A DNA stretch of 62,524 nucleotides. It comes from Bacteroidota bacterium. Its GTDB lineage: Bacteria; Bacteroidota; Bacteroidia; Bacteroidales; UBA12481. The stretch lies in the NCBI GenBank assembly GCA_018669475.1, contig JABHCC010000102.1:1-62524 (forward strand), read 5' to 3'. Below, one piece after another: positions 34,588 through 62,418 of this stretch. The notes under the pieces were generated by a model, which saw only the letters and a list, made by a program, of their open reading frames with translations, was not told the origin of the DNA and did not search any database. A program made the translations under genes and the position numbers. Position 1 is the stretch's first letter; every line of letters starts with the position of its first letter.

Positions 34588-34696
34588 GGAAAGGCATAGG
34601 GCTTAGGGTAAGTATGAGGTATTAAGAATAAGGGAAAAGGAAAGGGAATAATTACCAATTAGGCAGTCCCGAGTAACAGGGTAACCGAGTAACCGT
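34588..34696 (+). repeat. Compound intergenic tandem repeat (TTAGGG-like stretch, then GTAACCGA octamers)
   Basis: A purine-rich stretch with GGGCTTAGGGTAAG and TAAGAATAAGGG is followed by three octamers GTAACAGG (34673), GTAACCGA (34681) and GTAACCGT (34689). The last octamer overlaps the kynureninase stop codon (34696-34698). The same order of modules recurs in reverse orientation at 60380-60492. Confidence 0.7.
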
Positions 34697-36006
34697 CACG
34701 TCACCACATCTTTCACCCCCGACTGCCGCTCATACTCCTTTGCCTCCACTATCTCCCTTATCCTATGCATACTCTGATATATATCTTTGTAACTTGTATA
34801 TAATGGCGTTACACCCAGGCGAATGTAATTTGGTGATCTGAAATCAGGAATTATTATCTTCTGATCTCCTGCCGGATGAATAAGCGCCTGAGTAATCCGG
34901 TATGCCTCCGGGTGGCAGATAGAAATGTGGGAGCCACGAGATTGAGGATTTTTAGGTGATCCAAGGATGAAATCATTTGGCTTGAGCCATTTATTAAAGA
35001 GGTAAAGCAAATACTCGGTTTGCCGAATACTTTTCTGTCGAAGATTGTCCATTCCGGCTTCAAGCAGGAGGTCAATTCCATATTCAGTTGCGGCGGCGGA
35101 AAGAACCGGTGTCGTTGAAGTCAAAAAACGATTAATCCCTGATGCAGGCTCGAATTCAGCACTAAAATCAAAAGGATTCTCATGGGCAAACCAGGCCCAT
35201 ATCGGGTTCTGCAATTGATCCTGCAAGTCCTCCCTGACATAAAGAAAAGCTGAAGCACCCGGACCACCATTCAGGTATTTGTAGGTACATCCAACAGCAA
35301 GATCCACTTCACAGTCATTGAGTTTGATCGGAACAGCCCCAACAGAATGACTAAGATCCCAGAGAACCTGGGCTCCTGAATCATGGGCCAGGCGAGTAAT
35401 TGAACTCATCTCATATTTGAAGGCGGTTTTAAAACTCACATGGCTCAAACAAAGCAGGGCCGTTTGAGTACTAATAGCCGCTCTAATCTCATCTTCAGTT
35501 ACAGATATGCCATTATGACTCTTTGCTAAAACCAGCTCATACTGAGACTCAAAAAGATCGACCAAGCCCTGGAGCACATATAAATCAGATGGGAAATTGA
35601 GTTCATCGCTCACAATTCTGTTTTTGTCAGCACATTGCATCTTCATACTGGCAAAAGCAAGCTTAAACAGATTTATGGAAGTGGAATCTGTAAGTAGCAC
35701 TTCATTGGGTTTTGCTCCAATCAATCTGGCAATTTTAGCCCCAATACGTCGATTTAAATCAATCCAATCAGAATTCCAGCTCCTGATCAGAGCTTTTCCC
35801 CATTGCTCATCAACAAGCTGTGAAACTTTATCCCTCGTTTGCAAAGGCAACCTACCTAATGAATTCCCATCCATATAGATCAGATCTTTCTCGGCATGCA
35901 TAAATTTATCCCTGTAAGCAGACAAGCAATCATCATAATCTGCCTGTTCAGCAAAGGAAAAATTATCGCCCCAAACAATATCAGAGACCAGCATAGAATG
36001 TAACAT
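34696..36006 (-). CDS. kynU: Kynureninase
   Basis: This PLP enzyme cleaves kynurenine or 3-hydroxykynurenine to (3-hydroxy)anthranilate and alanine, in tryptophan breakdown or de novo NAD synthesis. It has 436 residues with the Schiff-base Lys243 in CTYKYLNGGPGASAFLYV, DLSHSVGAVPI with the PLP-binding Asp, and LNFPSDLYVLQ. RLGVTPLYTSYKDI near the C-terminus is also typical. Other kynurenine-pathway genes are not adjacent. It lies between two compound tandem repeats. Confidence 0.95.
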   Translation of the reverse strand: MLHSMLVSDIVWGDNFSFAEQADYDDCLSAYRDKFMHAEKDLIYMDGNSLGRLPLQTRDKVSQLVDEQWGKALIRSWNSDWIDLNRRIGAKIARLIGAKPNEVLLTDSTSINLFKLAFASMKMQCADKNRIVSDELNFPSDLYVLQGLVDLFESQYELVLAKSHNGISVTEDEIRAAISTQTALLCLSHVSFKTAFKYEMSSITRLAHDSGAQVLWDLSHSVGAVPIKLNDCEVDLAVGCTYKYLNGGPGASAFLYVREDLQDQLQNPIWAWFAHENPFDFSAEFEPASGINRFLTSTTPVLSAAATEYGIDLLLEAGMDNLRQKSIRQTEYLLYLFNKWLKPNDFILGSPKNPQSRGSHISICHPEAYRITQALIHPAGDQKIIIPDFRSPNYIRLGVTPLYTSYKDIYQSMHRIREIVEAKEYERQSGVKDVVT

Positions 36007-36027
36007 TATTTAATATTAAAATATTAA

Positions 36028-36092
36028 GTCCGGGGTCCGAAGTCCGAAGTCCGGGGTCCGGGGTCCGAAGTCCGGGGTAACGGAGTAACCGA
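36028..36092 (+). repeat. Compound tandem repeat: seven GTCCGRR heptamers, then GTAACCGA octamers
   Basis: Seven contiguous 7-bp units (GTCCGGG, GTCCGAA, GTCCGAA, GTCCGGG, GTCCGGG, GTCCGAA, GTCCGGG; 36028-36076) are followed by GTAACGGA (36077) and GTAACCGA (36085). It fills the gap between the kynU start and the folC stop codon. Its two modules also occur separately at 55045 (heptamer) and 34673/60380 (octamer). Confidence 0.85.
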
Positions 36093-36099
36093 GTTCCCC

Positions 36100-37398
36100 C
36101 TACTCCCCCACTGCATCTGCAACTATGTAGGTACTCCCTGTCACCAAAATCAGATCATCCTCTTCGGCTTCTTCTTTTGCTTTTTCAAGAGCCAGGGGAA
36201 CACTACTTACGATTGAGCCATTCAGACCATAATATCCGGCTTTTGCTGCCAGAATTTTACTGTCAAGTGCACGTGGAATACCGGCTTGTGTGAAATAATA
36301 GCAGGCTGCCCGGGGTAAAAGTTGAAGTACCTTGTCAATATTTTTATCCGACACCATCCCCAACACCAGATGCAGCTTATTGTACTTCGTCTCATCAAGC
36401 TGTTTCAGAAGATTCTTTATACCTTCCTCATTGTGAGCAGTATCAAAAACCAGGTTTGGCTTGTGTTCGACAATATCCCACCGTCCTTTCAAACCAGTCA
36501 GTTTTTTGGCATTGGCAATACCTGCATAAACGGCTTCATCGGGAATTGTCCATTTATTATGCTTCATTACTTCTAGAGTTTCAAGCACCACGGGTAGATT
36601 CTTTCTTTGGACGATTCCCTCCAGATCGCTATAAAGCTCTGGAAATACTGTGCGTTTTCCACGCCGTACATTGAAATACTGTTTTCCGTCATTGGCCAAA
36701 ACCGAATACGGAACCTGGAAATATTGATTTGCCAGGTACAATGGTGCTTTTAAACGCCCGGCAAACTCTTCAAATACATCTATAATTTCAGGACGTTTTT
36801 CTCCGATAACAACGGGAATTCCATCCTTAATAATTCCGGCTTTCTCTTTGGCGATACTTACCAGGGTATTTCCAAGAAATTCAGTATGATCTTTTGCAAT
36901 TCCGGTAATAACAGACACCTCGGGAATGAGAATATTTGTAGAATCGAGACGTCCTCCCATACCTACTTCAACAACAGCAATTTCTACTTCCTGACTTGCA
37001 AAGTAGTCAAAAGCAAGTGCTACGGTCATTTCAAAAAATGAGGGCTGCAGTGCCTCGAAAAAATTCTTATGTCGCTCAACCCAGCTGATAAGCTCCTTTT
37101 TGGGCATCATAGCTCCATTTATCCTTATTCGTTCTCTGAAATCAATAAGGTGAGGTGATGTGTACAATCCGGTTTTATATCCTGCCGATTGCAATACTGA
37201 AGCCAATAAATGTGCTACTGAGCCTTTGCCATTGGTGCCAGCAACATGAATACTTCTGAACTGCTCATGAGGATGACCAAAATACTCATCCAGCTTCAGA
37301 GTATTATCAAGGTCAGCTTTATAAGCGGCCTTTCCCATCCGTTGATACATGGGAAGTTGCGAATACAACCATTCTAAAATCTTATCGTATTTAGTCAT
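36100..37398 (-). CDS. folC: Bifunctional folylpolyglutamate synthase/dihydrofolate synthase
   Basis: This enzyme adds glutamate to dihydropteroate and folates. The Mur-ligase-type ATPase has the P-loop VAGTNGKGSVAH (near residues 53-64), TGLYTSPHLIDFRERIRING, and VEVGMGGRLDSTN with the catalytic Glu/Gly-rich segment; a C-terminal domain with FDTAHNEEG and VLGMVSDKNI follows. The 432-residue length is normal. It is cytoplasmic and appears to stand alone, 61 bp from the nitroreductase gene on the same strand. Confidence 0.95.
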   Translation of the reverse strand: MTKYDKILEWLYSQLPMYQRMGKAAYKADLDNTLKLDEYFGHPHEQFRSIHVAGTNGKGSVAHLLASVLQSAGYKTGLYTSPHLIDFRERIRINGAMMPKKELISWVERHKNFFEALQPSFFEMTVALAFDYFASQEVEIAVVEVGMGGRLDSTNILIPEVSVITGIAKDHTEFLGNTLVSIAKEKAGIIKDGIPVVIGEKRPEIIDVFEEFAGRLKAPLYLANQYFQVPYSVLANDGKQYFNVRRGKRTVFPELYSDLEGIVQRKNLPVVLETLEVMKHNKWTIPDEAVYAGIANAKKLTGLKGRWDIVEHKPNLVFDTAHNEEGIKNLLKQLDETKYNKLHLVLGMVSDKNIDKVLQLLPRAACYYFTQAGIPRALDSKILAAKAGYYGLNGSIVSSVPLALEKAKEEAEEDDLILVTGSTYIVADAVGE

Positions 37399-37459
37399 TT
37401 ATCTAAGTTAAAAAGAGGTAAATCCACGAATCAAATCCGGCAGGCAGGAATTGCCACTC

Positions 37460-37963
37460 CTACTTCCATATTATTCTGTTTTCGTTGAATCTGTTGGGCT
37501 GAACAGGCTCTGATGCCGGCCATCCGATTGATACCATTGCAAAAGCTTCGAGATGATCAGGCAGATCAAAAGCTTCCTTCAGATAGGCCATACGATTCTC
37601 TCTCGGGTAGGTTCCGATCCAGCAAGCTCCCAGCCCTAATGCATGAGCAGCCAGCAAGATATTCTGTGTGGCCGCCGAACAATCAGTTGTACCATAACCC
37701 TGAGTATACTGAAGGTCACGATTACGTAACACCAGGATACCCCATTCAGCCTCCATAAGCATTTTGGAATGGGGATGGCTTTCCAAAAAGCCTTTGAAAA
37801 TTTCTTTATCCCTGCTCACTAAAAAATGCCAGGGTTGAGTATTATTGGCTGACGGGGCATACATTGCAGCCTTCAGAATACTGGTAATTAATTCCTTATC
37901 AACAGGCCGGTTTTCATACTTCCTCACCGACCGTCTGGTTAATAGTCCATTATACAATTCCAT
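37460..37963 (-). CDS. Nitroreductase-family flavoprotein
   Basis: This small FMN-dependent oxidoreductase of 167 residues shows the family marks LLTRRSVRKYENRPV at the N-terminus, APSANNTQPWHFLV, and ALGLGACWIGTYPRE in the C-terminal half. Such proteins reduce nitro, quinone or enone compounds; the physiological substrate is unknown. It is divergent from the PhoH2 gene, whose chosen start is about 100 bp away. Confidence 0.9.
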   Translation of the reverse strand: MELYNGLLTRRSVRKYENRPVDKELITSILKAAMYAPSANNTQPWHFLVSRDKEIFKGFLESHPHSKMLMEAEWGILVLRNRDLQYTQGYGTTDCSAATQNILLAAHALGLGACWIGTYPRENRMAYLKEAFDLPDHLEAFAMVSIGWPASEPVQPNRFNENRIIWK

Positions 37964-38067
37964 AATTAGCGTATGTGAAAATATATAACAAAGTTAAAAA
38001 ACTGTCTGGCTCTCTCGACTATCCCTCTGTCATTTTTCCTATATTTATAGAAACGAAAAAGAAGCGA

Positions 38068-39396
38068 ATGGTCAATTTGAAGAAGATTTTCGTACTGGAC
38101 ACTAATGTTCTACTGCATGATCACCAGTGCATATATCAATTTGAGGAAAACGACATTGTTTTGCCAATTACCATTTTGGAAGAGCTTGATAAATTTAAAC
38201 GAGGCAATGATCTGATAAATTTTCAAGCCCGTGAATTTGTCAGAGAGCTGGATAATCTAACAGGTGAATTACTATTTACTGAAGGGATCTCATTGGGCCT
38301 CGGCCTCGGTAGATTGTATGTTGAAACAGGCAAGCCATTCTCAAGAGAAATGGAGGAATCATTCCATGAGAAAATTCCGGATCACAGGATTCTTGCCATT
38401 GCTGATTACACCAGAAATAAAAATCCTGAGAAGCAAGTCATCCTTGTCACTAAAGACGTGAACCTAAGGATAAAAGCCAAGGCAATTGGTCTTACTGCAC
38501 AAGATTACAAAGCCGGTCAGGTAAGTAATATTGATCATTTATACGAGGGGGTTCCTATTATTGAGAACCTGCCGGATGAGTCCATTGGCAAATTGTATGG
38601 AAATATGGAAGGGGTGGCTCTGGAGGAATTTGACCTTGGTTTTGAGCCTACTGCCAATCAATATATGATTCTCAGAGGGCATAAATCATCATCGCTTGCC
38701 TTGTTCGATATCAGAACAAGTTCAATTCATGTGGTTCAGAAGCAAAAATGTTATGGCGTTGAACCCAGGAATGCAGAACAAGCCCTGTCTCTTGATGCTC
38801 TGTTGCGTCCTGACATTCAATTAGTAAGCATGACAGGAAAAGCTGGTACAGGAAAAACTCTTCTTGCTCTGGCAGCAGCTCTGCAACAAAGACGAGATTA
38901 CCATCAGATCTTTCTGGCACGTCCTATCGTTCCTCTGGGAAACCGCGACATCGGATATCTCCCCGGAGATGCCCATGAAAAAATTGAACCTTACATGCAG
39001 CCACTTTTTGATAATCTCTCTGTGATAAGGCATCAGTTCGACCAAAGAAGCAAGGAATTTCAGAAGATAGATCAGTTGCTACAGGATGAAAAACTCGTGA
39101 TTACCCCATTAGCTTATATACGCGGACGCAGTCTTGGAAAGGTCTATTTTATTGTTGATGAGGCTCAGAACCTTACCCCTCATGAGGTGAAAACAATTAT
39201 TACCAGAGCAGGTGAAGGAACAAAAATTGTATTTACAGGTGATGTACATCAGATCGATTCTCCTTATCTGGATACAAAATCCAACGGTTTGTCATACCTG
39301 ACAGATAAAATGAAAGGTCAAGCAGTTTTTGCTCATGTAAATCTCGTACATGGGGAACGATCAGAGCTTGCTGAACTGGCCAGTAATCTGCTTTAA
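38068..39396 (+). CDS. PhoH2-type PIN-domain RNase/helicase ATPase
   Basis: This protein fuses an N-terminal PIN nuclease domain (FVLDTNVLLHD with D11 and N13 from the ATG at 38068) to a PhoH ATPase: Walker A GKAGTGKTLLAL near residue 257, Walker B VYFIVDEAQNLTPHEV near 361, and TGDVHQIDSPYLD. PhoH2 proteins unwind and cleave RNA. A longer frame begins at 37975, but its extra 31 residues are not conserved-looking and the PIN domain normally starts within about ten residues of the N-terminus, so 38068 is preferred. Confidence 0.92.
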   Translation: MVNLKKIFVLDTNVLLHDHQCIYQFEENDIVLPITILEELDKFKRGNDLINFQAREFVRELDNLTGELLFTEGISLGLGLGRLYVETGKPFSREMEESFHEKIPDHRILAIADYTRNKNPEKQVILVTKDVNLRIKAKAIGLTAQDYKAGQVSNIDHLYEGVPIIENLPDESIGKLYGNMEGVALEEFDLGFEPTANQYMILRGHKSSSLALFDIRTSSIHVVQKQKCYGVEPRNAEQALSLDALLRPDIQLVSMTGKAGTGKTLLALAAALQQRRDYHQIFLARPIVPLGNRDIGYLPGDAHEKIEPYMQPLFDNLSVIRHQFDQRSKEFQKIDQLLQDEKLVITPLAYIRGRSLGKVYFIVDEAQNLTPHEVKTIITRAGEGTKIVFTGDVHQIDSPYLDTKSNGLSYLTDKMKGQAVFAHVNLVHGERSELAELASNLL

Positions 39397-39420
39397 AAAA
39401 CTTTTCCCGATCTTTGCGCC

Positions 39421-40728
39421 ATGTTAAAAGGGAAGAATAAAACAGTGGCATTCTATACACTGGGTTGTAAACTGAATTTCTCAGAATCATCACAAATAGG
39501 CAGACAACTTGAGGATGAGGGATACGAAAGAATAAAATTTGGCGAGTCAGCCGATATTTCAGTAATTCACACCTGTTCGGTCACCGTATCGGCAGATCGT
39601 AAAACCAGACAAGCCATACGTAAGGCAAAACAAATCTCTCCTGACGGGATAATCGTAGCCATGGGCTGCTATGCCCAATTAAAATCAGATGACCCGAATG
39701 CATTTGAAGGAGTAGATCTGGTTTTAGGTACAAAAGAGAAATTTGATTTAGCCCAATACCTTGAGAAACACGAAGAACAGGGTGAAAAAATAATACAAGC
39801 CTGTGAAATTGATCTTGTTGAAAGCTTCTCTCCCGCTCAATCGATGGGTGAAAGGACAAGGGCCTTTCTTAAAGTGCAGGATGGATGCGATTACACCTGT
39901 AGTTACTGCACCATTCCACATGCCAGAGGGAAAAGCCGAAATCCTTCAATAGCCAATCTCGTACAACAAGTAAAACAAACTCTCTCAGAAGGAATCTCTG
40001 AAATCGTATTAACAGGAATCAACACCGGAGATTTTGGCAAGTCAACTAATGAATCATTTGAAGAGCTTCTTTTAGCCTTCGATCAGATACAAGGCAATCA
40101 TCGTTACCGTATTTCATCTATCGAACCCAACCTGCTGACAGATGAGATAATTCAGCTAACAAAAGAATCAGAACGCTTTGTCCCTCATTTTCATATCCCA
40201 TTGCAGGCCGGATCGAATGATATTCTAAAAAAAATGCAGCGCAGATATTTGCGTGAAACTTTCGCTGATCGTGTTTATAAAATTAAAAATACCCTACCGG
40301 ATGCAGCCATTGGGGCTGATGTGATTGTCGGATTTCCGGGTGAATCAGATGAACATTTCGAAGAAGCCATGACTTTTCTTGCAAATCTTCCCCTGAGCTA
40401 TCTGCATGTTTTTACTTATTCAGAACGACCGGGCACACCAGCAGCTGAAATAAAGACACAGGTACAGAATCGCACCAGAGATGAACGATCGGTTTTGCTG
40501 CATCAATTGTCAGATCGAATGAAATCTGAATTTTACAACAGTCAGACAGGATCCATCCGACAGGTTATTTTTGAAGGTCGAAATAAATCGGGACTGATGA
40601 CAGGATTTACCGAGAATTATGTTGAAGTTTGTGCTCCCTTTGACACAGGCAGAATCAAAAAGATAAGCATGGTGAAACTGCTTGAGACGGGTGACGGTGG
40701 GATAATAAGAGCCGAAATAATTAAATAG
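39421..40728 (+). CDS. mtaB: tRNA t6A37 methylthiotransferase MtaB
   Basis: This radical-SAM enzyme converts t6A to ms2t6A at position 37 of ANN-decoding tRNAs. The UPF0004 domain has three cluster cysteines C16 (FYTLGCKLNFSES), C52 (HTCSVT) and C83 (GCYAQ). The radical SAM motif is C156/C160/C163 (GCDYTCSYCTIPHARG). A C-terminal TRAM-like part follows. The YTLGCKLN start favours MtaB over RimO or MiaB. The 435-residue length is standard. It starts 24 bp after the PhoH2 gene and ends 6 bp before the next gene, so it is within a plus-strand run. Confidence 0.94.
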   Translation: MLKGKNKTVAFYTLGCKLNFSESSQIGRQLEDEGYERIKFGESADISVIHTCSVTVSADRKTRQAIRKAKQISPDGIIVAMGCYAQLKSDDPNAFEGVDLVLGTKEKFDLAQYLEKHEEQGEKIIQACEIDLVESFSPAQSMGERTRAFLKVQDGCDYTCSYCTIPHARGKSRNPSIANLVQQVKQTLSEGISEIVLTGINTGDFGKSTNESFEELLLAFDQIQGNHRYRISSIEPNLLTDEIIQLTKESERFVPHFHIPLQAGSNDILKKMQRRYLRETFADRVYKIKNTLPDAAIGADVIVGFPGESDEHFEEAMTFLANLPLSYLHVFTYSERPGTPAAEIKTQVQNRTRDERSVLLHQLSDRMKSEFYNSQTGSIRQVIFEGRNKSGLMTGFTENYVEVCAPFDTGRIKKISMVKLLETGDGGIIRAEIIK

Positions 40729-40734
40729 AACAGA

Positions 40735-41523
40735 ATGAATCTCAAACAACTATGTTTTGATGTTATTGAAATTACACGAGAAGTAGGTGAATTCTTAAAA
40801 AGCAGTGTCGATCAGCTTAGCGACGATATGATTGAAGCAAAAGGGAGTATGGACTTCGTTACTGTGGTGGATAAAAAATCTGAGGTTTTGATAATTGACA
40901 GACTCACTGAATTGTTGCCTGAGGCAGGATTTGTTGCTGAAGAAGGAACATCCACCAAAAGAGGAGATCATTATAACTGGATAATTGACCCTCTTGATGG
41001 AACAACAAATTTTATCCATGGTGTATTCCCTTTTACTATTAGCATTGCCCTGATGCATGATGAGGAATTGATTCTCGGAATTGTTCATGATCCCATTCAC
41101 AATGAGTGTTTTTATGCCTGGAAAGACGGAGGTGCATATGTAAACGATAAGCCTATTCATGTAAGCTCAAGAAATAAACTCAACCAGTGCCTTGTAGCAA
41201 CAGGTTTCCCCTATACTGATTTCAGTCTCATTGATGAATACATGGCTTCATTAAGAGAATATATGACTTTGACTCACGGAGTAAGGCGTCTGGGTTCGGC
41301 TGCTATGGATCTGGCTTATGTGGCATGCGGACGTTATGATGCTTTCTATGAATATCATCTGAAACCATGGGATGTTGCAGCTGGTACGGTTTTAATACGG
41401 GAGGCTGGCGGCACAGTATGTGATTTTAATGGAGGGGATGATTTTCTGAATAATGAAAACTATGTAGCAACAAATGGTTTTATCCGGGAGGAGTTTATGG
41501 AAATAATTCTGAAACATTTCTAG
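40735..41523 (+). CDS. Inositol monophosphatase-family phosphatase (SuhB/CysQ-like)
   Basis: This 262-residue Mg-dependent sugar-phosphate phosphatase has the two metal motifs EEG (E70) and IIDPLDGTTNFIHG (D85, D88), the downstream Asp in KPWDVAAGTVLIREAGG and the family's GxxxGSAAMDLAYVACGRYD. It could act on inositol phosphates, fructose-1,6-bisphosphate or adenosine 3',5'-bisphosphate; the length fits the SuhB group best. It starts 6 bp after mtaB and ends 6 bp before the sigma-factor gene, so these genes probably share a transcript. Confidence 0.92.
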   Translation: MNLKQLCFDVIEITREVGEFLKSSVDQLSDDMIEAKGSMDFVTVVDKKSEVLIIDRLTELLPEAGFVAEEGTSTKRGDHYNWIIDPLDGTTNFIHGVFPFTISIALMHDEELILGIVHDPIHNECFYAWKDGGAYVNDKPIHVSSRNKLNQCLVATGFPYTDFSLIDEYMASLREYMTLTHGVRRLGSAAMDLAYVACGRYDAFYEYHLKPWDVAAGTVLIREAGGTVCDFNGGDDFLNNENYVATNGFIREEFMEIILKHF

Positions 41524-41529
41524 TATGTA

Positions 41530-42066
41530 ATGGCTTCTGGCAAATCAATAAGCAATAAGCATAATCAACAGGGAGATCTTGAAGCATTTGAGACACTCTT
41601 TAATAAACACTATTCGGGATTATTAAGATATGGAAGCCAATTAACTGGTAATGAAGAGAGCAGCAGGGAGATCATTCAGGAAGTATTCATGCGATTATGG
41701 GAAAACCGCGAGCGTAAGCCTATTGATAATTCCCTTAAATCATACCTTTTTTCAGCTGTTCATAATCGTTCACTAAACTACTTACGACATCAGAAAATCG
41801 AGCAAAATCATCAGTCGGCCATCTGGTTAGAATGGCTTGGAGCTCCACTACAAATACCAGAAATCAATCCATTTCTTAAAAAAGCTCTCATAACAGCAAT
41901 CGATAGTTTACCGCAGCGGGCCAAAGAGTGTTTTTCCTACACTCAGCTGGATGGCTTGTCGTATCAGGAAACTGCGGTGTTAATGGAGATAAAAATTAAA
42001 ACTGTTGAAAACCAAGTCAACAGAGCACGTAAACTCTTGCAAAAAAAACTTCGTCACTTCATTTAA
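41530..42066 (+). CDS. ECF-type RNA polymerase sigma factor
   Basis: This 178-residue sigma-70 factor is of the Bacteroidota extracytoplasmic-function type. Region 2 contains SREIIQEVFMRLWENR and region 4 contains LSYQETAVLMEIKIKTVENQ followed by VNRARKLLQKKL. It starts 6 bp after the phosphatase gene, and a FecR-like anti-sigma gene follows after 63 bp. Normally such a pair controls a SusCD locus just downstream; here the next gene is a GWxTD-domain protein instead. Confidence 0.95.
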   Translation: MASGKSISNKHNQQGDLEAFETLFNKHYSGLLRYGSQLTGNEESSREIIQEVFMRLWENRERKPIDNSLKSYLFSAVHNRSLNYLRHQKIEQNHQSAIWLEWLGAPLQIPEINPFLKKALITAIDSLPQRAKECFSYTQLDGLSYQETAVLMEIKIKTVENQVNRARKLLQKKLRHFI

Positions 42067-42129
42067 TATTTTCTTTTGGGGGTTTGTCGGTTTTAGAGTG
42101 TCTACCATATAGACAATAGAATAAAACTG

Positions 42130-42891
42130 ATGAATCACGACAAATTACTAATAAGATTTTTGGCTGACGAGCTTAGTCCTGTTGAAAAAAGAAGAGTTTC
42201 AGCAAGACTTCTCACTGACAATGATCTTCAACAAAGACTTGATCAGTTGAGAGGTTTCTGGGATGAAAAGAATGAAGAGCTTGAAATCTCACCTAAACAG
42301 GCCTCTGACTGGACAAATCTTACAAACAGGCTCAATCTGACAAAGGATTCCAGTATCATAGCGCTCACTCAACGAAGTATTCCAAAATGGTTTATCCGGA
42401 TTGCAGCAGTTCTGATAATTGCACTGGGAACTACACTGATATGGGATTCTCAAAGATCATTTGAAACTGTTAAAGGACGAACTGATGAGCCAATAGCCAG
42501 CCGATTACCTGATGGTACAGAGGTATACCTGACCAAAGGATCAAAACTCACATACCCAAAAACTTTTGCATCTGATAGTCGTCTGGTGCAGCTCTCAGGC
42601 GAAGGATATTTTGATGTTGTTGGAGATCCTAAATACCCATTTATTGTTGATACCGGTCAAACGAAAGTATCAGTGACTGGTACAACATTCAGAATAAAAG
42701 CCTCCGGGAAATCTGAAGAAGTTGCTGTGCTTGTAAGGGCTGGTAAAGTATTGTTTTACAATTCTGAGATTTTAACTGAGAACTCCTTCAAGGTTGGACT
42801 TGGGCCTGGTGATGTAGGGACTTATTATCCCAAACTTAATCAATTGAATAAGTCTCATAACAAAGACTATAAACATTTGAATTGGAACTAA
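42130..42891 (+). CDS. FecR-family anti-sigma factor
   Basis: This 253-residue single-span inner-membrane protein has a cytoplasmic N-terminus (about 1-82) that should bind the sigma factor, a transmembrane helix (FIRIAAVLIIALGTTLI, about 85-105), and a periplasmic FecR domain (SRLPDGTEVYLTKGSKLTYP; LSGEGYFDVVGDPKYPFIVD; VSVTGTTFRIKA). The C-terminal secretin/TonB-short-type domain seen in many Bacteroides FecR proteins is lacking or very short. It is the partner of the ECF sigma gene upstream. Confidence 0.93.
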   Translation: MNHDKLLIRFLADELSPVEKRRVSARLLTDNDLQQRLDQLRGFWDEKNEELEISPKQASDWTNLTNRLNLTKDSSIIALTQRSIPKWFIRIAAVLIIALGTTLIWDSQRSFETVKGRTDEPIASRLPDGTEVYLTKGSKLTYPKTFASDSRLVQLSGEGYFDVVGDPKYPFIVDTGQTKVSVTGTTFRIKASGKSEEVAVLVRAGKVLFYNSEILTENSFKVGLGPGDVGTYYPKLNQLNKSHNKDYKHLNWN

Positions 42892-42932
42892 TTTTTCATA
42901 ATTCTAACATATAATAAATTAAAACCTTAGCC

Positions 42933-44396: not shown

Positions 44397-44411
44397 ACCT
44401 CAATCTTGTAA

Positions 44412-45281: not shown

Positions 45282-45297
45282 GGTTTATATTTACAGC

Positions 45298-53266: not shown

Positions 53267-53341
53267 TCATACTTGTACAATAATTGAGTAAAACCCCAGT
53301 TTTCATAGGATAAAGGCTTAAAAATACTCGCTAATATTAAC

Positions 53342-53349
53342 TATATTTG
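53342..53349 (+). promoter_or_regulatory. Bacteroidota -7 box upstream of porV
   Basis: TATATTTG matches TAnnTTTG and ends 13 bp before the ATG at 53362, or 25 bp before the in-frame ATG at 53374. It suggests porV can be transcribed separately from porU, and the spacing is more comfortable for a start at 53374. No clear TTG -33 element is present. Confidence 0.4.
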
Positions 53350-53361
53350 TCGCTGATTTAA

Positions 53362-54570
53362 ATGGCACTGAAAATGAGACAATTGTCAAAATTTATTACT
53401 CTTTCACTTGTATTGTATATCTGTGTTAATCCGGTATTTGGACAAATAAACACAGGGCAGGTAACCGGAGAAGTTAATACTATTACCTCTGCTGTACCCT
53501 TTTTAACTATAGCACCAGATTCCAGATCAGGAGCTATGGGAGATGTGGGCGTAGCACTTTCCCCGGATGCTAACAGTATGCACTGGAATCCGGCGAAATA
53601 TGCTTTTGTGCCCAATGATATGGGTTTTGCCGTTTCGTATACACCATGGTTAAGAGAATTAATTCCGGATATTAACCTCGCTTACTTGTCAGGATACAAA
53701 AGAATTGATCAGGAACAGGTCATCGGATTCTCTCTTTTATATTTTTCCCTCGGAAATATCGTTTTCACTGATGTTGTAGGTAACACCAGCGGACAATTTA
53801 ATCCTAATGAATTTGCTATTGATGGAGCCTATGCCAGAGCATTTTCTGATCGTTTCTCTGGTAGTTTGGCCTTTAGGTTTATTTACTCAAACTTAACCGG
53901 AGGTCAGTTTGTTGGAGGAGTTGAATCTTATCCGGGAACAGCATATGCAGCGGACGTGAGTTTATTCTATATGAACACTGATTTAACTGCCGGATCATAT
54001 GACGCAACCGCTTCATGGGGTTTGAATATTTCTAATCTGGGATCCAAAATCTCATACACAAAAAATTCTGATAAGGATTTCATCCCTATCAATATGCGTC
54101 TTGGTGGAGCCTATTCAATTGAATTTGATGATTACAACAGCATCACAATGGCTCTTGACATTAATAAAATGTTAGTTCCAACCCCACCAATCTATTCTAC
54201 TGAAGAGGTTGATATAAACGGTAATCCTATGATTGAGGCAGGGATGGATCCAAACGTTGCTGTACCGGTAGGTATCTTCCAGTCATTTTACGATGCTCCT
54301 CTGGGTTTCCAGGAAGAACTGAATGAATTTACTTTCTCACTGGGTGCTGAATACTGGTATGCTAATCAATTTGCTATACGTGGTGGTTATTTCCAGGAAC
54401 ATGCAACGAAAGGTAATCGTAAATACTTCACTTTGGGTGTAGGTCTTAGATTAAATGTATTCGGACTTGACTTTGCATATCTTGTTCCATTATTCCAAAA
54501 CAATCCTTTAGCCAACACACTGCGTTTCAGTCTATTATTTGACATTGAAGGCATGCAGAACCGGCGCTAA
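53362..54570 (+). CDS. porV: T9SS outer membrane protein PorV
   Basis: This 402-residue outer-membrane beta-barrel of the FadL-like type carries cargo from the Sov translocon to PorU. The signal peptide ends near NPVFGQ. The PorV-typical PFLTIAPDSRSGAMGDVGVA follows the leader, then SMHWNPAKYAF. The barrel ends in an aromatic-rich strand. An alternative start at 53374 (MRQLSKF) is likely because a promoter box lies very close to 53362. The stop codon overlaps the ispF ATG (TAATG), so ispF is coupled to it. Confidence 0.94.
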   Translation: MALKMRQLSKFITLSLVLYICVNPVFGQINTGQVTGEVNTITSAVPFLTIAPDSRSGAMGDVGVALSPDANSMHWNPAKYAFVPNDMGFAVSYTPWLRELIPDINLAYLSGYKRIDQEQVIGFSLLYFSLGNIVFTDVVGNTSGQFNPNEFAIDGAYARAFSDRFSGSLAFRFIYSNLTGGQFVGGVESYPGTAYAADVSLFYMNTDLTAGSYDATASWGLNISNLGSKISYTKNSDKDFIPINMRLGGAYSIEFDDYNSITMALDINKMLVPTPPIYSTEEVDINGNPMIEAGMDPNVAVPVGIFQSFYDAPLGFQEELNEFTFSLGAEYWYANQFAIRGGYFQEHATKGNRKYFTLGVGLRLNVFGLDFAYLVPLFQNNPLANTLRFSLLFDIEGMQNRR

Positions 54571-55052
54571 TGAATATTCGAATCGGATTCGGCTATGACG
54601 TTCATCAGTTGGTACCCAACCGAAAACTGGTCATAGGTGGAATCGAGATAGAACATAATAAAGGTACTCTAGGGCATTCTGATGGGGATGCCCTTATTCA
54701 TGCTATATGTGATGCCCTGCTGGGCGCCCTGGCTTTACGTGATATAGGTTATCATTTCCCTGACACTTCATCTGAATATAAAGATATTGACAGCAAAATA
54801 CTGTTGAAAAGAACATGTAAGCTGATCAATGATAAAGGTTGGGAACCAGGTAATATTGATGTCACAGTATGCCTCGAAAAGCCAAAGCTCAATAGCCATA
54901 TCTCAAAAATGCAAAAGACTCTTGCATCCATTCTTGCAATCATGCCAGATCAACTATCAATCAAGGCAACAACGAATGAGAAAATGGGCTTTGTAGGGCA
55001 AGAAAATGGGATAGCAGTATACGCAGTATGTACTGTGCTTCGCAGTCCGTAG
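54570..55052 (+). CDS. ispF: 2-C-methyl-D-erythritol 2,4-cyclodiphosphate synthase
   Basis: This enzyme of the MEP isoprenoid pathway has 160 residues. The zinc ligands are D10 and H12 (GFGYDVHQL) and H44 (GHSDGDALIHAICDALLGAL). DIGYHFPDT and ATTNEKMGFVGQENGIAVYA are also characteristic. Its ATG overlaps the porV stop codon by one base. The last codons and the TAG stop are made by the start of a GTCCGNN tandem repeat (55045 onwards), so the C-terminal SP residues are repeat-derived. Confidence 0.96.
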   Translation: MNIRIGFGYDVHQLVPNRKLVIGGIEIEHNKGTLGHSDGDALIHAICDALLGALALRDIGYHFPDTSSEYKDIDSKILLKRTCKLINDKGWEPGNIDVTVCLEKPKLNSHISKMQKTLASILAIMPDQLSIKATTNEKMGFVGQENGIAVYAVCTVLRSP

Positions 55053-55075
55053 TCCAAAGTCCGGGGTCCGGGGTC
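55045..55075 (+). repeat. GTCCGGG-type heptamer repeat overlapping the ispF stop codon
   Basis: Four 7-bp units (GTCCGTA, GTCCAAA, GTCCGGG, GTCCGGG) plus GTC. The first unit supplies the end of ispF including its stop codon (55050-55052). Same heptamer as at 36028. It lies between two convergent genes. Confidence 0.75.
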
Positions 55076-55076
55076 T

Positions 55077-55484
55077 TCATCTTGTGTAAGTCGCTGTTAC
55101 ATGATCTACCACACCTCCTCCATCATCTGCAGTATATGTGAACTCAATCGTGTTATTATCGCTGCTCAGGATTGCTGATCCCTCGAATTCTATTCCGCTA
55201 ACGCTTTGCTTACTAATGGATATAGATCTGCCTATGATTGTGAAACTAATATCTGAGCCTGAGCCCATATTGTAGAAATTGTCAACATAGTATTTACTGT
55301 CTGACATTGCATCCTGAGCTATATATACCGGGAATATACTCGTGCCCTTCATGGCTTTCATATATATCTCACTGGTTTCCTCACATTGCCATGAACCTTC
55401 AAGTGAAACATCAATTGGTTCAAAAACACATCCTGCAAAACCGAGTAAAAAAACTATCAGTATTAGTGAATTACGTGCTTTCAT
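55077..55484 (-). CDS. Small lipoprotein, lipocalin-like
   Basis: This 135-residue protein has a lipoprotein signal (ILIVFLLGFAGC, Cys19) and a mature part with the pattern of a small beta-barrel: LEGSWQCEETSEIY, followed by alternating strands to TYTADDGGGVVDHVTATYTR. The LEGSWQC start resembles lipocalin-like domains of other Bacteroidota lipoproteins. The function is unknown. It is convergent with ispF and lies 19 bp after the hutU gene on the same strand. Confidence 0.6.
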   Translation of the reverse strand: MKARNSLILIVFLLGFAGCVFEPIDVSLEGSWQCEETSEIYMKAMKGTSIFPVYIAQDAMSDSKYYVDNFYNMGSGSDISFTIIGRSISISKQSVSGIEFEGSAILSSDNNTIEFTYTADDGGGVVDHVTATYTR

Positions 55485-55503
55485 ATCGTTAAGGTTAAAT
55501 TAT

Positions 55504-57519
55504 TTAAGATTCTATCAGTCCATCAATCAGCTCATCATTGGCGATATTCGCAATAGTAACTTTGAGTGCCGGCTCTTGTTTCATAGCCTCCTTAATAGCA
55601 AACGCGGCCGGCTCATTCCTGGCCCATGATCGCCGGGCGATACCGTTATTAACATCCCAGTGCAGCATCTTCTGAATTCGATTGTCAGCCTCTGCACTTC
55701 CATCGATCACCATTCCAAATCCACCATTGATAACTTCTCCCCATCCTACTCCTCCGCCATTATGGATTGAAACCCAGCTCGCACCTCTGAAAGAGTCACC
55801 TATTACATTATGAATAGCCATATCTGCAGTAAATTGGGAGCCGTCATAAATATTCGAAGTTTCCCTGTAAGGAGAATCTGTTCCTGATACATCATGATGA
55901 TCCCTCCCTAAAACGATAGGTGCAGAAACTCTGCCGGTTCTGATGGCATTGTTAAATGCTTTTGCAATACGAATCCTACCGGCTGCATCAGCATATAAGA
56001 TCCTTGCCTGCGATCCCACAACCATTTTATTCGGACCAGCCTCTCTGATCCAATGCAGGTTATCGGCCATCTGCATTTTAGTTTCATCTGGTGCCTGAGC
56101 TGTCATCTCCTCCAATACCTCAGCTGCAATCTGATCTGTAGTTTCAAGATCAGCAGGATCATTTGAACAACATACCCATCTGAAAGGGCCAAATCCATAA
56201 TCAAAAAATAGCGGGCCCATTATATCCTGCACATAAGAGGGATATTTAAAGGTACCATCCGGCAGGAAAACATCAGCACCTGCCCTTCCTGCTTCGAGGA
56301 GGAAAGCATTGCCGTAATCCCAGAAATACATGCCTCGTTCAACATGTTGATTTATTGCCTTTATCTGCCTGCGCAGTGATTCCTGTACCTTTTTAATAAA
56401 CTCATCAGGCTCATTAACCATCATCTGATTTGACTCATCAAAGCTCATCCCTGCCGGATAATATCCTCCTGCCCAGGGATTATGCAAAGATGTTTGGTCA
56501 GAACCCATATCAATCTTGATATCCGACTTCAGCAGAGCCTCCCATAGGTCTACAATATTACCCTCAAAGGCAAGAGAAACAGCCTCCTTATTCTTTTTGG
56601 CCTCTTCAGTCCTCTGAATCAATATATCAGGATTAGAAAATATTTCATCTACCCATCCTTGTGAATGCCGTTTATGAGCTGCATGTGGGTTCACTTCAGC
56701 CACCAGACAAATTCCTCCGGCAATAACAGTTGCTTTGGCCTGTGCACCAGACATACCTCCCAAACCGGATGTGACAAATATTTTACCACCCATGCCTTCA
56801 TCAGCCGTTTTTGCCTTCATTCTGCCAGCATTCATAACAGTAATAGTTGTTCCATGCACTATTCCCTGGGGTCCGATATACATGAATGAGCCGGCTGTCA
56901 TTTGTCCGTACTGTGAAACACCAAGGGCATTAAACTTCTCCCAATCATCTGGCTTCGAGTAATTTGGAATTACCATTCCATTACTTACAACAACTCGGGG
57001 CGCCTCAGTATGCGAAGGAAACAATCCCAATGGATGGCCTGAATACATCACCAAGGTTTGCTCATCAGTCATCTCAGACAAGTATTTCATTGTCAGACGA
57101 TATTGGGCCCAATTTTGGAATACAGCGCCATTGCCACCGTAGGTGATCAGTTCATGCGGATGCTGTGCCACTGCATCATCCAGATTATTCATAATCATCA
57201 GCATGATGGCAGCTGCCTGCTTTGATTTATGGGGAAATTCGTCAATATGCCTTGCTTTGATAATATAATCAGGCCGATACCTGTACATATAAATACGACC
57301 ATAGCCTTCTAGCTCTTTAAGAAATTCAGGAGCGAGTTCAGCATGATGTTCCGGATTGAAATATCTGAGGGCATTTTTTATTGCGAGTTTTTTCTCCTTA
57401 CCCGATAAGATCTCTTTTCTCTTTGGAGCGTGACTGACAGAATTATCAATTATTTTGGGTGCAGGTATCTGATCAGGGATACCTTCTTTTATAGAGTTTT
57501 GGAATGGCTTGTTGGTCAT
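55504..57519 (-). CDS. hutU: Urocanate hydratase
   Basis: This is the second enzyme of histidine degradation (urocanate to imidazolonepropionate), NAD-dependent, of 671 residues. Signatures are TAGSFMYIGPQGIVHGTT, MGGKIFVTSGLGGMSGAQAK, ISIHNGGGVGWGE-like WVSIHNGGGVGWGEVINGG, and the active-site cysteine region FRWVCCSNDPADLE. The length fits the longer Bacteroidota form. The other hut genes (hutH, hutI, ftcD) are not adjacent. Confidence 0.95.
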   Translation of the reverse strand: MTNKPFQNSIKEGIPDQIPAPKIIDNSVSHAPKRKEILSGKEKKLAIKNALRYFNPEHHAELAPEFLKELEGYGRIYMYRYRPDYIIKARHIDEFPHKSKQAAAIMLMIMNNLDDAVAQHPHELITYGGNGAVFQNWAQYRLTMKYLSEMTDEQTLVMYSGHPLGLFPSHTEAPRVVVSNGMVIPNYSKPDDWEKFNALGVSQYGQMTAGSFMYIGPQGIVHGTTITVMNAGRMKAKTADEGMGGKIFVTSGLGGMSGAQAKATVIAGGICLVAEVNPHAAHKRHSQGWVDEIFSNPDILIQRTEEAKKNKEAVSLAFEGNIVDLWEALLKSDIKIDMGSDQTSLHNPWAGGYYPAGMSFDESNQMMVNEPDEFIKKVQESLRRQIKAINQHVERGMYFWDYGNAFLLEAGRAGADVFLPDGTFKYPSYVQDIMGPLFFDYGFGPFRWVCCSNDPADLETTDQIAAEVLEEMTAQAPDETKMQMADNLHWIREAGPNKMVVGSQARILYADAAGRIRIAKAFNNAIRTGRVSAPIVLGRDHHDVSGTDSPYRETSNIYDGSQFTADMAIHNVIGDSFRGASWVSIHNGGGVGWGEVINGGFGMVIDGSAEADNRIQKMLHWDVNNGIARRSWARNEPAAFAIKEAMKQEPALKVTIANIANDELIDGLIES

Positions 57520-57578
57520 TGATTACGATTTTATGCAAAATTAGGTTTTTTCTTGCTTTCAGACCTGCCATGTTTAAA

Positions 57579-60374
57579 CTAAAATTGATGAATTAATTTA
57601 CCTGTACTTACCTCCCCTCCTGCTATTACTTTTACAATCATTACTCCAGGCGGTAATTGGCTCAGGTCAAGAACAATCATTCCGTCATGATTGGATGGTG
57701 GAGCCACATGCATTAGTTTCTTGCCTTGCAGATCAAAAATCATTACTTCAATTCCATCACCCTGATCAGGAAAACTGAGCCAAACACGGTCACTTGCAGG
57801 GTTGGGATACATGTTGATCTTACCCGCATTATCAGGTAAACGAGGTGATATGCCCGATACAATATCAGGCTGCTCTAATCTTACATCAGTGTAAATACGG
57901 TACTCACTCGGATCAAAGCTCAACCATGCATCTGTATTCTCTACGAAAAGCGAATCACCTGTCCAGTATTCATACCACCATCCGGTGTGTTGAAATCCGG
58001 TTTGTCCCAGTTTACTCCAGGTGCTGAAATTCCCTAGTATGCTGACATTCATTTCGGAATGATTCAAATTGATTCTCTTCACCGTGTCCCTGACTATAAG
58101 TTCAAAATCATCAGATTGAAAGACAGGGTAATCCTGTTTTAAATGATTGAGTGCCGAATAAACCTGATACAACCTTTTTCGGGCAGGCTCATTGTAATAG
58201 TCCCACTTTATCGGCTTCTTGCCTACACGCCCATTATAATCAATCGAATAATCATAGCCCAACTCCCCGAACATCCAAATCATTTTCGGACCAGGTATCG
58301 GGATGAAAAGATTCGCGGCAAGCTCCATTCTTTGAAGAGCAATCAGCTCATCTTGAACTGAATGATTAATATTCTGTGTGTTCCCTTCCTCATAACATGA
58401 ATACATTAAGCGCTCCTCATCATGACTTTCCATAAAACCAACAGCGTGAGCATCATTCCAGCCTCTCTCCTCATACGAAATCCATGACAAATCAGAGGCT
58501 CCTCCGCCAAGATATCCTTTAGCAGCAATCCGGTAGGCGTGGTTCATATTACCCCATAACATCATGCCGTGATTTGCCAGTTCAGTTTCTTCAGAGTTTG
58601 CAGCAAAATGCTCCAGAATGACATAAGTATCGGGATTTTCTGACCAGATTTTGTCTGACATCCTTTTCAGAATAGATATTCTGGATGCATCGTAAGCTCC
58701 TCCATCTCCTGGTGTATTGGTGAATCCTTTAGTAAAATCAAAACGGAAACCATCAATCTGATACTCGTTCAACCAATAGGAATTCACTGAATCAACAAAG
58801 CGTTTTGTTGCCTCGCTCTCATGGTTATAATCATATCCCCAGGAAAAAACCGGGTTTGGAGAGCTTTGATTAAACCATGGATTGTTTGCAGCAGGCTGTC
58901 CTAGCTCACTGTCCCAATACATTCGTACCAAAGAACACTGACCATATGCATGATTCATAACCATATCAACTATTACGGCCATACCACGCTGATGAGCTGA
59001 ATCGATAAGAGCTTTGAAAGAATCTGCCGGACCATAATATTTATCAACTGCAAAGTAGAAAGAAGTATTATAGCCCCAGCTGTCGTTACCTTCAAATTCG
59101 TTTACCGGCATCAGCTCCAAGGCATTTATTCCCAGCGTTTGCAAATAATCGAGTGTATCAATTAATCCCGAAAAACTATGATTATCCAGAAAATCACGTA
59201 TCAGGAGTTCATAAATCACTAATTCATCGGGTTCAGGGGCCTGAAAACCTGAATTTTGCCATTGATATGCTTCCTGACCTGTCTGCAGTACAGATGCAAT
59301 TTGAGATGTCTTCCCTGCCGGATATGATATCAGGTTGGGATATGTGGCATCACTTATATAATGATCGTTCCATGGATCAGAAGTTTTATTAGTATATGGA
59401 TCGGCAATCCTGATGCTGGCGTCAATAAAGTATTGGAATACATATTCTTTCCCTAACTCAAGATCGCTCAACTCGATCCAGAAATAATCTCCATCAGGGG
59501 TTTGTTTCATCAGGAATTCAGTTTCGATTTGCCAATCGTTAAAATCTCCTATAGTAAAAACAAATTCCTTTTCAGGAGCATACAACACGAGAATCACATT
59601 TCCTTCAGTAGTATAATTAATTCCGGCGATGGCTCCATCCGGCAGGTCTTCAATATTACCTGCACCACGAACCATATAACTGAATGATTTTTCAACTGAA
59701 GAGCCATTTGCAAATGCCTTAATCAAAACCTCATGAATTCCTTCAGAAGGTACACTCAGAGAGTAATTCAGGTCATTGCCCGGCTGACTGAAAAGCCAGT
59801 TGCCATCGTGTATTATCTGTATTGAATCAGCCATTGTAGCTGCAGCTTCAACAAGAAGTTCACTACTCGGTTCAACCAGCACAAAGGAAGTATTGGGCTG
59901 CAATATTGTAATATTAAGACCCTCCTGATAGACTTCAAGCATTATATCGCTTCCGTCACTTGCCCGGCCTGTTTGAGTACCATCAGAATTTCGAAAAACA
60001 AAAGCCAGTTGTTTTATTGTATCACTAGCTGCGACAGCATAGAAATCGTTAATCGTAGGTTCAATATTTAGCTCCCACAGATCATTTCCAAGAGAGGTGA
60101 GACTGGCTTTGTCAGTATTTTCGCTCCATTCGGCAATCACATATTTCCAGTCTGTATTCGAAGCACTTTTATCAGTAATAACACCGGCATGTGCCCAAAT
60201 ATCACCAGTATATCCAGCCAGACCAGCGTTTCCTTCTGCGGCATTAAAAATAATTTTCACCCCTTGATCAGCAAGAGGAAAAACAGGATCTGTCGTAATC
60301 ACCTGGGCAGACAGCGTGGATTGTGCGATGATGCAGAAGATGCAGATGATGTGGAAGAGAGAGGTTTGTTTCAT
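57579..60374 (-). CDS. Secreted GH13 alpha-amylase with T9SS sorting domain
   Basis: This 931-residue extracellular starch- or glycogen-degrading enzyme has a signal peptide (ends STLSAQ), N-terminal beta-sandwich domains including a CBM48/E-set-like module (VILVLYAPEKEFVFTIGDFN), and a GH13 catalytic barrel with LGINALELMPVNEFEGNDSW, VIVDMVMNHAYGQ, nucleophile Asp in IDGFRFDFTKG (near 546), acid Glu in YVILEHFAAN (near 587) and the third Asp in FMESHDEERL (near 650). A C-terminal T9SS type A sorting domain closes it (INMYPNPASDRVWLSF; GKLIHQF). It lies downstream of a second GH13 gene. Confidence 0.93.
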   Translation of the reverse strand: MKQTSLFHIICIFCIIAQSTLSAQVITTDPVFPLADQGVKIIFNAAEGNAGLAGYTGDIWAHAGVITDKSASNTDWKYVIAEWSENTDKASLTSLGNDLWELNIEPTINDFYAVAASDTIKQLAFVFRNSDGTQTGRASDGSDIMLEVYQEGLNITILQPNTSFVLVEPSSELLVEAAATMADSIQIIHDGNWLFSQPGNDLNYSLSVPSEGIHEVLIKAFANGSSVEKSFSYMVRGAGNIEDLPDGAIAGINYTTEGNVILVLYAPEKEFVFTIGDFNDWQIETEFLMKQTPDGDYFWIELSDLELGKEYVFQYFIDASIRIADPYTNKTSDPWNDHYISDATYPNLISYPAGKTSQIASVLQTGQEAYQWQNSGFQAPEPDELVIYELLIRDFLDNHSFSGLIDTLDYLQTLGINALELMPVNEFEGNDSWGYNTSFYFAVDKYYGPADSFKALIDSAHQRGMAVIVDMVMNHAYGQCSLVRMYWDSELGQPAANNPWFNQSSPNPVFSWGYDYNHESEATKRFVDSVNSYWLNEYQIDGFRFDFTKGFTNTPGDGGAYDASRISILKRMSDKIWSENPDTYVILEHFAANSEETELANHGMMLWGNMNHAYRIAAKGYLGGGASDLSWISYEERGWNDAHAVGFMESHDEERLMYSCYEEGNTQNINHSVQDELIALQRMELAANLFIPIPGPKMIWMFGELGYDYSIDYNGRVGKKPIKWDYYNEPARKRLYQVYSALNHLKQDYPVFQSDDFELIVRDTVKRINLNHSEMNVSILGNFSTWSKLGQTGFQHTGWWYEYWTGDSLFVENTDAWLSFDPSEYRIYTDVRLEQPDIVSGISPRLPDNAGKINMYPNPASDRVWLSFPDQGDGIEVMIFDLQGKKLMHVAPPSNHDGMIVLDLSQLPPGVMIVKVIAGGEVSTGKLIHQF

Positions 60375-60379
60375 GGGGA

Positions 60380-60492
60380 GTCGGTTACTCGGTTATTCTG
60401 TTACTCGGTTACTAGGATATTTGGTCAACTTACTTATTTCTTAGCTCTTAGCCTTATTTCTTAAGCCTTAATCCCCTAAGCCTTAAGCCCTT
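60380..60492 (-). repeat. Compound intergenic tandem repeat (TTAAGG-like stretch, then GTAACCGA octamers)
   Basis: Read on the minus strand: AATAAGGGCTTAAGGCTTAG and related TTAAGG/CTAAG repeats, then octamers GTAACCGA, GTAACAGA, ATAACCGA and GTAACCGA (60380-60412). The order of the modules is the same as at 34588-34696. It fills the gap between the two amylase genes. Confidence 0.7.
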
Positions 60493-62359: not shown

Positions 62360-62418
62360 CACAAGGTGGTTTAATAGATAAAAACTGATAACTATCATAT
62401 AACAGAATCCACAATCAT

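Follow-up and report, generated by a model that had tools for sequence, protein, structure and literature searches.

The Bacteroidota bacterium of GenBank assembly GCA_018669475.1 (order Bacteroidales, UBA12481) carries, on contig JABHCC010000102.1, arrays of short tandem repeats at four gene boundaries. The stretch analysed here, referred to as the window, spans positions 1 to 62,524 of that contig, and its arrays are built from three kinds of units: GTCCGRR heptamers, octamers of the GTAACCGA type and a TTAGGG/TTAAGG-like stretch of GGVTTAR-type heptamers. The four arrays are probably members of a class of bacterial satellite arrays with short units (7-8 nucleotides, nt) that is specific to the lineage and spread over the genome; the units would be copied between sites, multiplied by slippage and would persist at gene ends, where they are tolerated. 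Because some orthologous sites in relatives hold another unit or none, the arrays give the impression of having been inserted, copied from place to place and exchanged, not of being conserved as regulatory signals.

All four arrays were read directly in the sequence and detected by Tandem Repeats Finder, where the original prediction, made from the letters of the window, had placed them. Downstream of the stop codon of kynU lies a plus-strand stretch of GGVTTAR-type heptamers (34593-34651) that drift to units beginning AAGTAT or of the form GGGAATAA; its first part (34593-34607) matches the stretch pattern with one mismatch, and the whole can be aligned with other stretch-octamer composites. 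It is followed by GTAACCGA-type octamers (34673-34695, plus strand) that abut the TGA stop codon of the minus-strand kynU (34696-34698). On the other flank of kynU, within the gap that separates it from folC, seven GTCCGRR heptamers (36028-36076, plus strand) are fused without a spacer to two GTAACCGA-type octamers (36077-36092, plus strand), with the folC stop codon 7 nt away. Four GTCCGRR-type heptamers and one partial unit (55045-55075, plus strand) lie between ispF and a convergent small uncharacterised gene and provide the ispF stop codon (55050-55052). The fourth array is on the minus strand, where a GGVTTAR-type stretch (60453-60492) adjoins the stop codon (60494-60496) of a minus-strand gene (60494-62398) and is followed, in the reading direction, by four GTAACCGA-type octamers (60381-60412). 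The proposal that the arrays occupy short gaps at gene ends thus holds for three sites, whereas the array at 55045 overlaps the end of ispF. Among 100 dinucleotide shuffles of the window, none reached the 8 matches to GTAACCGAGTAAC at up to 2 mismatches (0.56 expected) or the 12 matches to GTCCGRRGTC at up to 1 mismatch (4.6 expected); the stretch pattern GGNTTARGGNTTARG gave 10 matches at up to 2 mismatches against 5.2 expected, a number reached in 4 of the 100 shuffles, and the stretch module by itself is statistically weak in the window. The first of the four clusters in the window is at 34681 and the first 34 kb are free of arrays, as had been noted, an absence that says little when there are four clusters in all; isolated pattern matches at 2984, 21315, 24357, 28515 and 33808 are no more than chance would give.

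The same units recur throughout the source genome (G000), a draft of 5.56 Mb in 215 contigs that is 95.4% complete. The GTCCGRR pattern GTCCGRRGTCCGRRGTC has 214 matches there and its reversed control 1, and the octamer pattern GTAACCGAGTAACCG, of the GTAACCGA type, has 39 against 1, so that the modules are by no means confined to the window; the stretch pattern GGCTTAAGGCTTAAG at up to 2 mismatches discriminates poorly (61 against 49). An array mapper run over three long stretches (462 kb) found 4 GTCCGRR arrays and 0 for each of 12 permuted units, 4 GTAACCGA arrays against 0-2 for permuted units, and 8 GGVTTAR arrays against 0-1. In total, 102 arrays forming 82 clusters were mapped in 694 kb, about 12% of the genome, partly selected by unit matches; the mapped loci came mostly from the unit search, and those of GTCCGRR were taken from 100 of the 214 places. 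With tandem units of about 7 nt at many loci, the arrays qualify as intergenic heptamer simple-sequence repeats of the long class. For a single unit to be present at dozens of unlinked places, it must have been copied from one to another, and it is here that an account in which each array arose at its own gene end by local slippage, without any exchange between loci, becomes very improbable: independent births should give every locus a unit of its own, but a single unit recurs genome-wide, and the permuted versions of GTCCGRR form no arrays at all in 462 kb. What speaks for such slippage is the prevalence of particular periods, seven and eight being the commonest in stretches from the family and seven prevailing beside GTCCGRR arrays elsewhere, together with copy-number variation in another genome (G279) and a published over-representation of heptamers in long simple repeats, summarised in PMC4679880, which also summarises Mrazek (2007) on intergenic heptamer repeats.

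The periods themselves were counted in five genomes, and the relatives have units of their own at periods 7 and 8. G005 has 24 segments of period 7 and 12 of period 8 in 270 kb (one period-8 segment being counted twice in overlapping loci) and at most 4 at any other period; G002 has 11 and 13 in 129 kb of contigs partly selected for octamers, and 0 at other periods; G001 has 7 and 7 in 197 kb with at most 1 at others; G007 has 1 and 1 in 110 kb with 0 at others; and the source genome has 6 and 1 in 400 kb with at most 3 at others. Near the 80 GTCCGRR loci listed from many phyla, the flanks contain 19 period-7 segments, about six to eight of them GTCCGG-like themselves, as against 0-2 at other periods between 4 and 12. 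The variation in G279 concerns three paralogous loci (L379, L394 and L395) with flanks 91-95% identical and GTCCGAA arrays of 6, 6 and 10 units.

The original prediction had treated the three modules as separate entities. The modules are real, but reading the clusters indicates that they are parts of one continuum: the stretch grades through GGAATAA and CAGAATAA into CCGAATAA/CCGAGTAA octamers, the two intergrading as NNNNTAA units, and GTCCGRR arrays often continue in register as GTCGTTG, AGTCCCC or GATTCCC units, so that the heptamers beginning GTC intergrade too. In G002, from the same family, the heptamer GTAACGA and the octamer GTAACCGA are mixed in one array. The composites have a preferred module order and polarity. 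Among modules on the same strand, the stretch precedes the octamer as the sole order at 6 loci, the reverse order alone is found at 0, and both orders are found at 1 (p 0.03); the claim that octamers always come last accordingly stands for six of these seven loci and is mixed at the seventh. GTCCGRR precedes AGTCCCC 8:0 (p 0.008), CCCGATT 7:0 (p 0.016), GTCGTTG 10:2 (p 0.039) and the octamer 2:0, again on the same strand. Period-7 sequence in the source genome lies mostly to the right of GTCCGRR cores (32 against 11, p 0.002); in other genomes the corresponding numbers for 85 usable of 89 cores are 49 right and 34 left with 2 ties (p 0.12, not significant), and strong period-7 flanks are to the right in 25 and to the left in 6 of the 89.

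Stop codons and the gaps of convergent gene pairs are the preferred surroundings of the arrays, and a few are in frame within genes. Setting aside 16 of the 82 clusters, namely 8 within called genes and 8 that lie where a contig ends, the gaps of the other 66 are convergent in 25 cases, tandem in 34 and divergent in 7, as compared to 50, 229 and 51 among 330 background gene pairs (convergent excess, p 6e-5). In tandem gaps the array is closer to the stop codon 25 times and closer to the start 9 times (p 0.009). With stretch-only clusters excluded, convergent gaps account for 20 of 52 (p 2e-4) and the stop-to-start ratio is 19:6 (p 0.015). A stop codon is within 10 nt in 31 of 59 clusters with a stop flank, and a start codon in 2 of 41 with a start flank. 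Although coding sequence makes up 86-89% of the long stretches, 8 of the 82 clusters are inside called open reading frames (one of these, C206:94355, may be a chance stretch match) and 7 overlap the end of one; the arrays are thus over-represented in non-coding sequence.

Such a bias to stop codons and convergent gaps is what would be expected if the arrays were functional 3'-end elements under selection, i.e., terminators, G-quadruplexes or binding arrays, and two further observations favour this: published GGGNATC heptamers, which are located near stop codons, form quadruplexes in vitro (PMC4692102), and 7 of the 8 GTCCGRR loci read in G359, a genome of another order, look by eye like inverted pairs (L386-L393; for example GATGACA units on the left and TGTCATC units on the right), unlike those of the source genome. 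We nonetheless consider function of this kind improbable. Seven RNA folds of the window gaps gave z scores of -0.94 to +1.18 against shuffles, with no excess of structure, and the idea that these arrays act as RNA hairpins or terminators was rejected for want of a folding signal; between 33900 and 37600 there are 2 terminator-like sites against 3.4 in shuffles, one of them overlapping an array. The four-GGG quadruplex motif is found in 0 of the 4 window gaps and 13 of the 82 clusters, which sets the arrays apart from the GGGNATC quadruplex type. The unit also differs at orthologous sites, and some arrays are intragenic.

The arrays were compared with relatives at three sites. The kynureninase gene kynU (34696-36006, minus strand; PF22580, PF00266), with arrays on both flanks, has close orthologues (55-57% identity) in 2 of 11 family genomes, and its neighbour (36100-37398, minus strand; PF02875, PF08245) encodes a Mur ligase family protein of folC type, a gene name given by family. 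The gap between the two is 93 nt in the window, 39 nt in G003, where it reads by eye as drifting heptamers (GGCTAAG, GTCCAAA, GACTAAA), and 6 nt in G007. The second site is the end of ispF (YgbB family, PF02542; 54570-55052, plus strand), whose last codon and stop codon are inside the array, and its convergent partner (55077-55484, minus strand) encodes a small protein with no Pfam match. ispF is present in 38 of 41 genomes; 22 loci were read and 10 tested for synteny, and the convergent partner is kept in 7 of these 10, the source genome included. Arrays are found at this junction in four of the seven syntenic genomes, with four different units: GTCCGRR in G000, GTAACCGA/GTAACTGA in G002, AGTCTTAA in G005 and GATAATTT in G007, the array providing the ispF stop codon in both G000 and G002. 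G003 and G001 have no array in this gap, which measures 12 nt in the former and 6 nt in the latter, a genome of the same genus (81% identity); G010 likewise has no array, its gap size not being measurable. The near-absence of sequence at array sites in some relatives fits insertion. Orthologous sites that are empty or differently occupied require either insertion or replacement, and one gene junction with four different units, or none, argues against a sequence-specific function. The suggestion that the arrays are protein-binding arrays or variable elements of untranslated regions is not supported, in view of the differing units, the lack of excess folding in the window arrays and the position of some arrays in coding loops.

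The third site is inside a gene. The source MnmE protein, aligned with those of 18 relatives, contains two arrays, both in frame and inside loops. In loop 1, G000 has an array of GTCCGRR plus AGTCCCC units and G001 has AAGACCA units; this loop is short in every other sequence that extends over it, which leaves out rows L311 and L312. In loop 2, G000 has GTCCGRR and G009 has TCGGGTN units, and L318 has a long loop of a different kind. The TrmE_N domain of Pfam matches the source MnmE in two separate stretches, as expected if an array splits the domain. In G009 (L305), a stretch encoding VPASAGMTKKG comes directly after the heptamer array of loop 2; this peptide resembles one that is repeated in other bacteria. 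In-frame arrays were also located in five other proteins of the source genome: an E2 acyltransferase, where the array separates the lipoyl domain (5-72) from the E3-binding domain (142-176), a protein with a beta-lactamase-fold domain joined to DUF3471, where it is close to the join, a histidine kinase, a penicillin-binding protein and a class-III aminotransferase.

In the reading that we favour, i.e., satellite-like arrays of copied and slippage-expanded units, a few units would first be copied to a new site from the genome-specific set of existing arrays, possibly via template switching of nascent strands between arrays. Slippage or unequal exchange would then alter the copy number while point mutations cause the unit to drift, a heptamer becoming an octamer through one added base, as from GTAACGA to GTAACCGA; unit drift and copy-number differences fit these processes. 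Selection would finally purge insertions that damage genes, leaving those at gene ends and in permissive loops, which would account for the observed bias to such places. On this account the presence of the arrays is explicable without any function. The copying and slippage steps are what the pattern of units suggests, and the first proposal of a mobile or slippage-driven repeat class finds backing in the same units at dozens of unlinked loci, in orthologous sites that are empty or have another unit, and in the copy numbers of the three G279 paralogues.

Several points weigh against it. Neither an enzyme that could copy the units nor a signature of transposition came to light, no search having been aimed at transposases or target duplications, and the array ends are ambiguous. 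Slippage and copying are deduced from comparisons across loci and genomes rather than within a species. Arrays at the same site could represent one ancestral array with its unit replaced rather than repeated insertion. Slippage alone does not predict a preferred module order; opposite-strand pairings exist (e.g., GTCCGRR with AGTCCCC in 2 and 4 pairs), and the stretch and GTCCGRR follow no order (2:3). The three sites were compared in a few genomes each, placement was determined with a simple codon-usage gene caller and rough start codons at loci mostly from the unit search, and the count in the named cellular-genome collection is for GTCCGRR alone.

The preferred order and strand of the modules speak for a rival reading, a compact mobile element family, REP- or MITE-like (repetitive extragenic palindromes, miniature inverted-repeat transposable elements) or made by a reverse transcriptase from an RNA template, with the arrays being copies of a few composite ancestors. 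This is unlikely on the evidence at hand. In its favour, stretch-octamer composites at several loci have a common linker resembling AAGTATAAGTAAAAGGAATAA, and of 9 matches to AAGTAAAAGGAATAA at up to 1 mismatch, 5 are in such composites, 3 are outside and 1 was not looked at. The linker fails as a genome-wide marker, being rarer at up to 2 mismatches than the reversed control (81 against 131). Inverted arms flank 10 of 43 source arrays, as compared to a mean of 15.8 for re-paired flanks, so that the inverted-repeat body of REP, REPIN or MITE elements is lacking; with arrays of other phyla the signal is at best weak (38 of 79 at k=7 against 29.6, standard deviation 4.0, for re-paired flanks; 10 against 10.1 at k=8), and inverted arms were dismissed as a general design. 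Telomerase-like repeat synthesis, described for DRT10 in PMC12632851 as a reverse transcriptase with a template RNA that encodes the repeat, was likewise rejected. PF00078 finds two reverse transcriptases in the source genome, one with a group II maturase domain and one retron-like by context, and the 6-8 kb around them contain 0 matches and 1 match (0.34 expected) to a GTCCGRR template, i.e., none beyond chance; in a genome 95.4% complete, such absence is not proof. Ku-dependent end joining is not required as a generator since some array-bearing genomes lack Ku: a search of 24 genomes did not find it in G000, and of the 8 genomes reached via foreign GTCCGRR loci, 4 have it and 4 do not. The retron-like reverse transcriptase (L271 2378-6360, G000:C80) is situated between genes resembling, by eye, a nucleoside deoxyribosyltransferase and an OLD-type ATPase, making this a possible phage-defence locus.

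Outside the source genome, GTCCGRR is no commoner than control units. Of 395 genomes drawn from its phylum, 7, the source included, have exact matches, and 7 have matches to the reversed control; more than one exact match is found in G000, G279 and G359 only. At up to 1 mismatch the numbers are 4 of 60 genomes (source included) against 10 of 60 for the control, and for the octamer 9 of 60 (source included) against 27 of 60, the octamer not being above its control outside G000 and G002 (11 against 1). Since control units are as common elsewhere, GTCCGRR marks the source genome, and the octamer also G002, rather than the whole group. Reversed controls are heavily represented in single genomes (77 matches in G388, 32 in G010 and 20 in G040), which suggests that these have their own 7-8 nt units, and other genomes probably carry their own families of such arrays. 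That one repeat family has spread horizontally across phyla is accordingly scarcely credible, even though GTCCGRR arrays are known from at least 116 stretches belonging to many phyla and from 10 viral stretches (two pairs of which look like the same sequence); the three control units are about equally common in viral contigs, with 11 stretches for the reversed unit (scanned in two registers, 11 each), 6 for GCTCGRR and 12, on 10 contigs, for CGTCGRR, and transfer across phyla was therefore rejected. TAACTGA arrays are found in 65 viral stretches (L503-L567), roughly six times the number for GTCCGRR or control heptamers. More tentatively, the family of the source genome, and probably many phyla, may run a dedicated repeat-copying activity that adds genome-specific 7-8 nt arrays in directional order at gene 3' ends and in protein loops, a possibility that we rate well below our favoured reading; if true, it would amount to a bacterial counterpart of satellite-DNA turnover, with sites that last while their units are swapped.

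The arrays are a variant of known intergenic heptamer repeats. The GGGNATC and GGGGA(C/T)T heptamers of Xanthomonas and Nostoc are dispersed, mainly non-coding and near stop codons, with inverted pairs reported (Rehm et al. 2015, PMC4692102), and cyanobacterial heptamer arrays of Calothrix are cited there. Our arrays resemble GGGNATC repeats as dispersed, mostly non-coding, stop-proximal heptamer arrays and differ in mostly lacking a quadruplex motif, in joining 7- and 8-nt units into ordered composites, in their enrichment between convergent genes and in a unit that varies among genomes at the few sites compared; the Calothrix arrays share with them the heptamer unit, in a cyanobacterium. Cyanobacterial heptamers of this sort are named short tandemly repeated repetitive (STRR) sequences. 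TAACTGA direct repeats are found in Beggiatoaceae, Cyanobacteria and some Bacteroidetes, mostly just upstream of starts in the main genome studied, and in a few Bacteroidetes are mixed with other heptamers, close relatives having shorter, repeat-free gaps (MacGregor 2015, PMC4679880). They share with the present arrays short intergenic direct repeats and a patchy distribution, and the G002 octamer GTAACTGA contains TAACTGA; unlike them, our arrays have other units and lie near stops (31/59 within 10 nt) rather than starts (2/41), which places them outside that class. Borg repeats are fast-evolving tandem repeats of independent origins, both intergenic and intragenic, and the Borgs that carry them are described as very large extrachromosomal elements, linear in form, of archaea (Schoelmerich et al. 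2023, PMC9879509); our arrays are similarly between and inside genes, and differ in belonging to a bacterial draft genome and in reusing one unit set genome-wide. The arrays fit the known class with three additions that did not show up in our literature searches, none of which was aimed at them: composites whose modules keep an order, arrays at one site whose units differ from genus to genus, and arrays in frame within several proteins of a single genome. Among the papers listed nothing pointed to arrays of GTCCGRR, to composites with an order or to the replacement of a unit at its site, the search by unit letters being too unspecific and the last two topics not having been searched for by name, and GTAACCGA has 0 occurrences in PMC4679880, the sole paper checked for it.

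Both heptamer-array papers (PMC4692102, PMC4679880) handle one unit type each and propose regulatory or structural roles. Our findings shift the question to mutation, i.e., what copies units to new sites and why there is a preferred order. The in-frame MnmE arrays show a route by which low-complexity loops can originate in housekeeping proteins, and those in the E2 acyltransferase linker, the penicillin-binding protein and the other proteins probably illustrate the same origin.

As to the remaining content of the window, there are no Rfam matches and no tRNA genes in it. Pfam identifies a Por_Secre_tail sorting domain among the window proteins, which suggests Bacteroidota, and another tandem repeat, with a period of 10-20 (AATTGGATCATAATTGGCTC), is located at 13661-13713, outside the GTCCGRR, octamer and stretch class.
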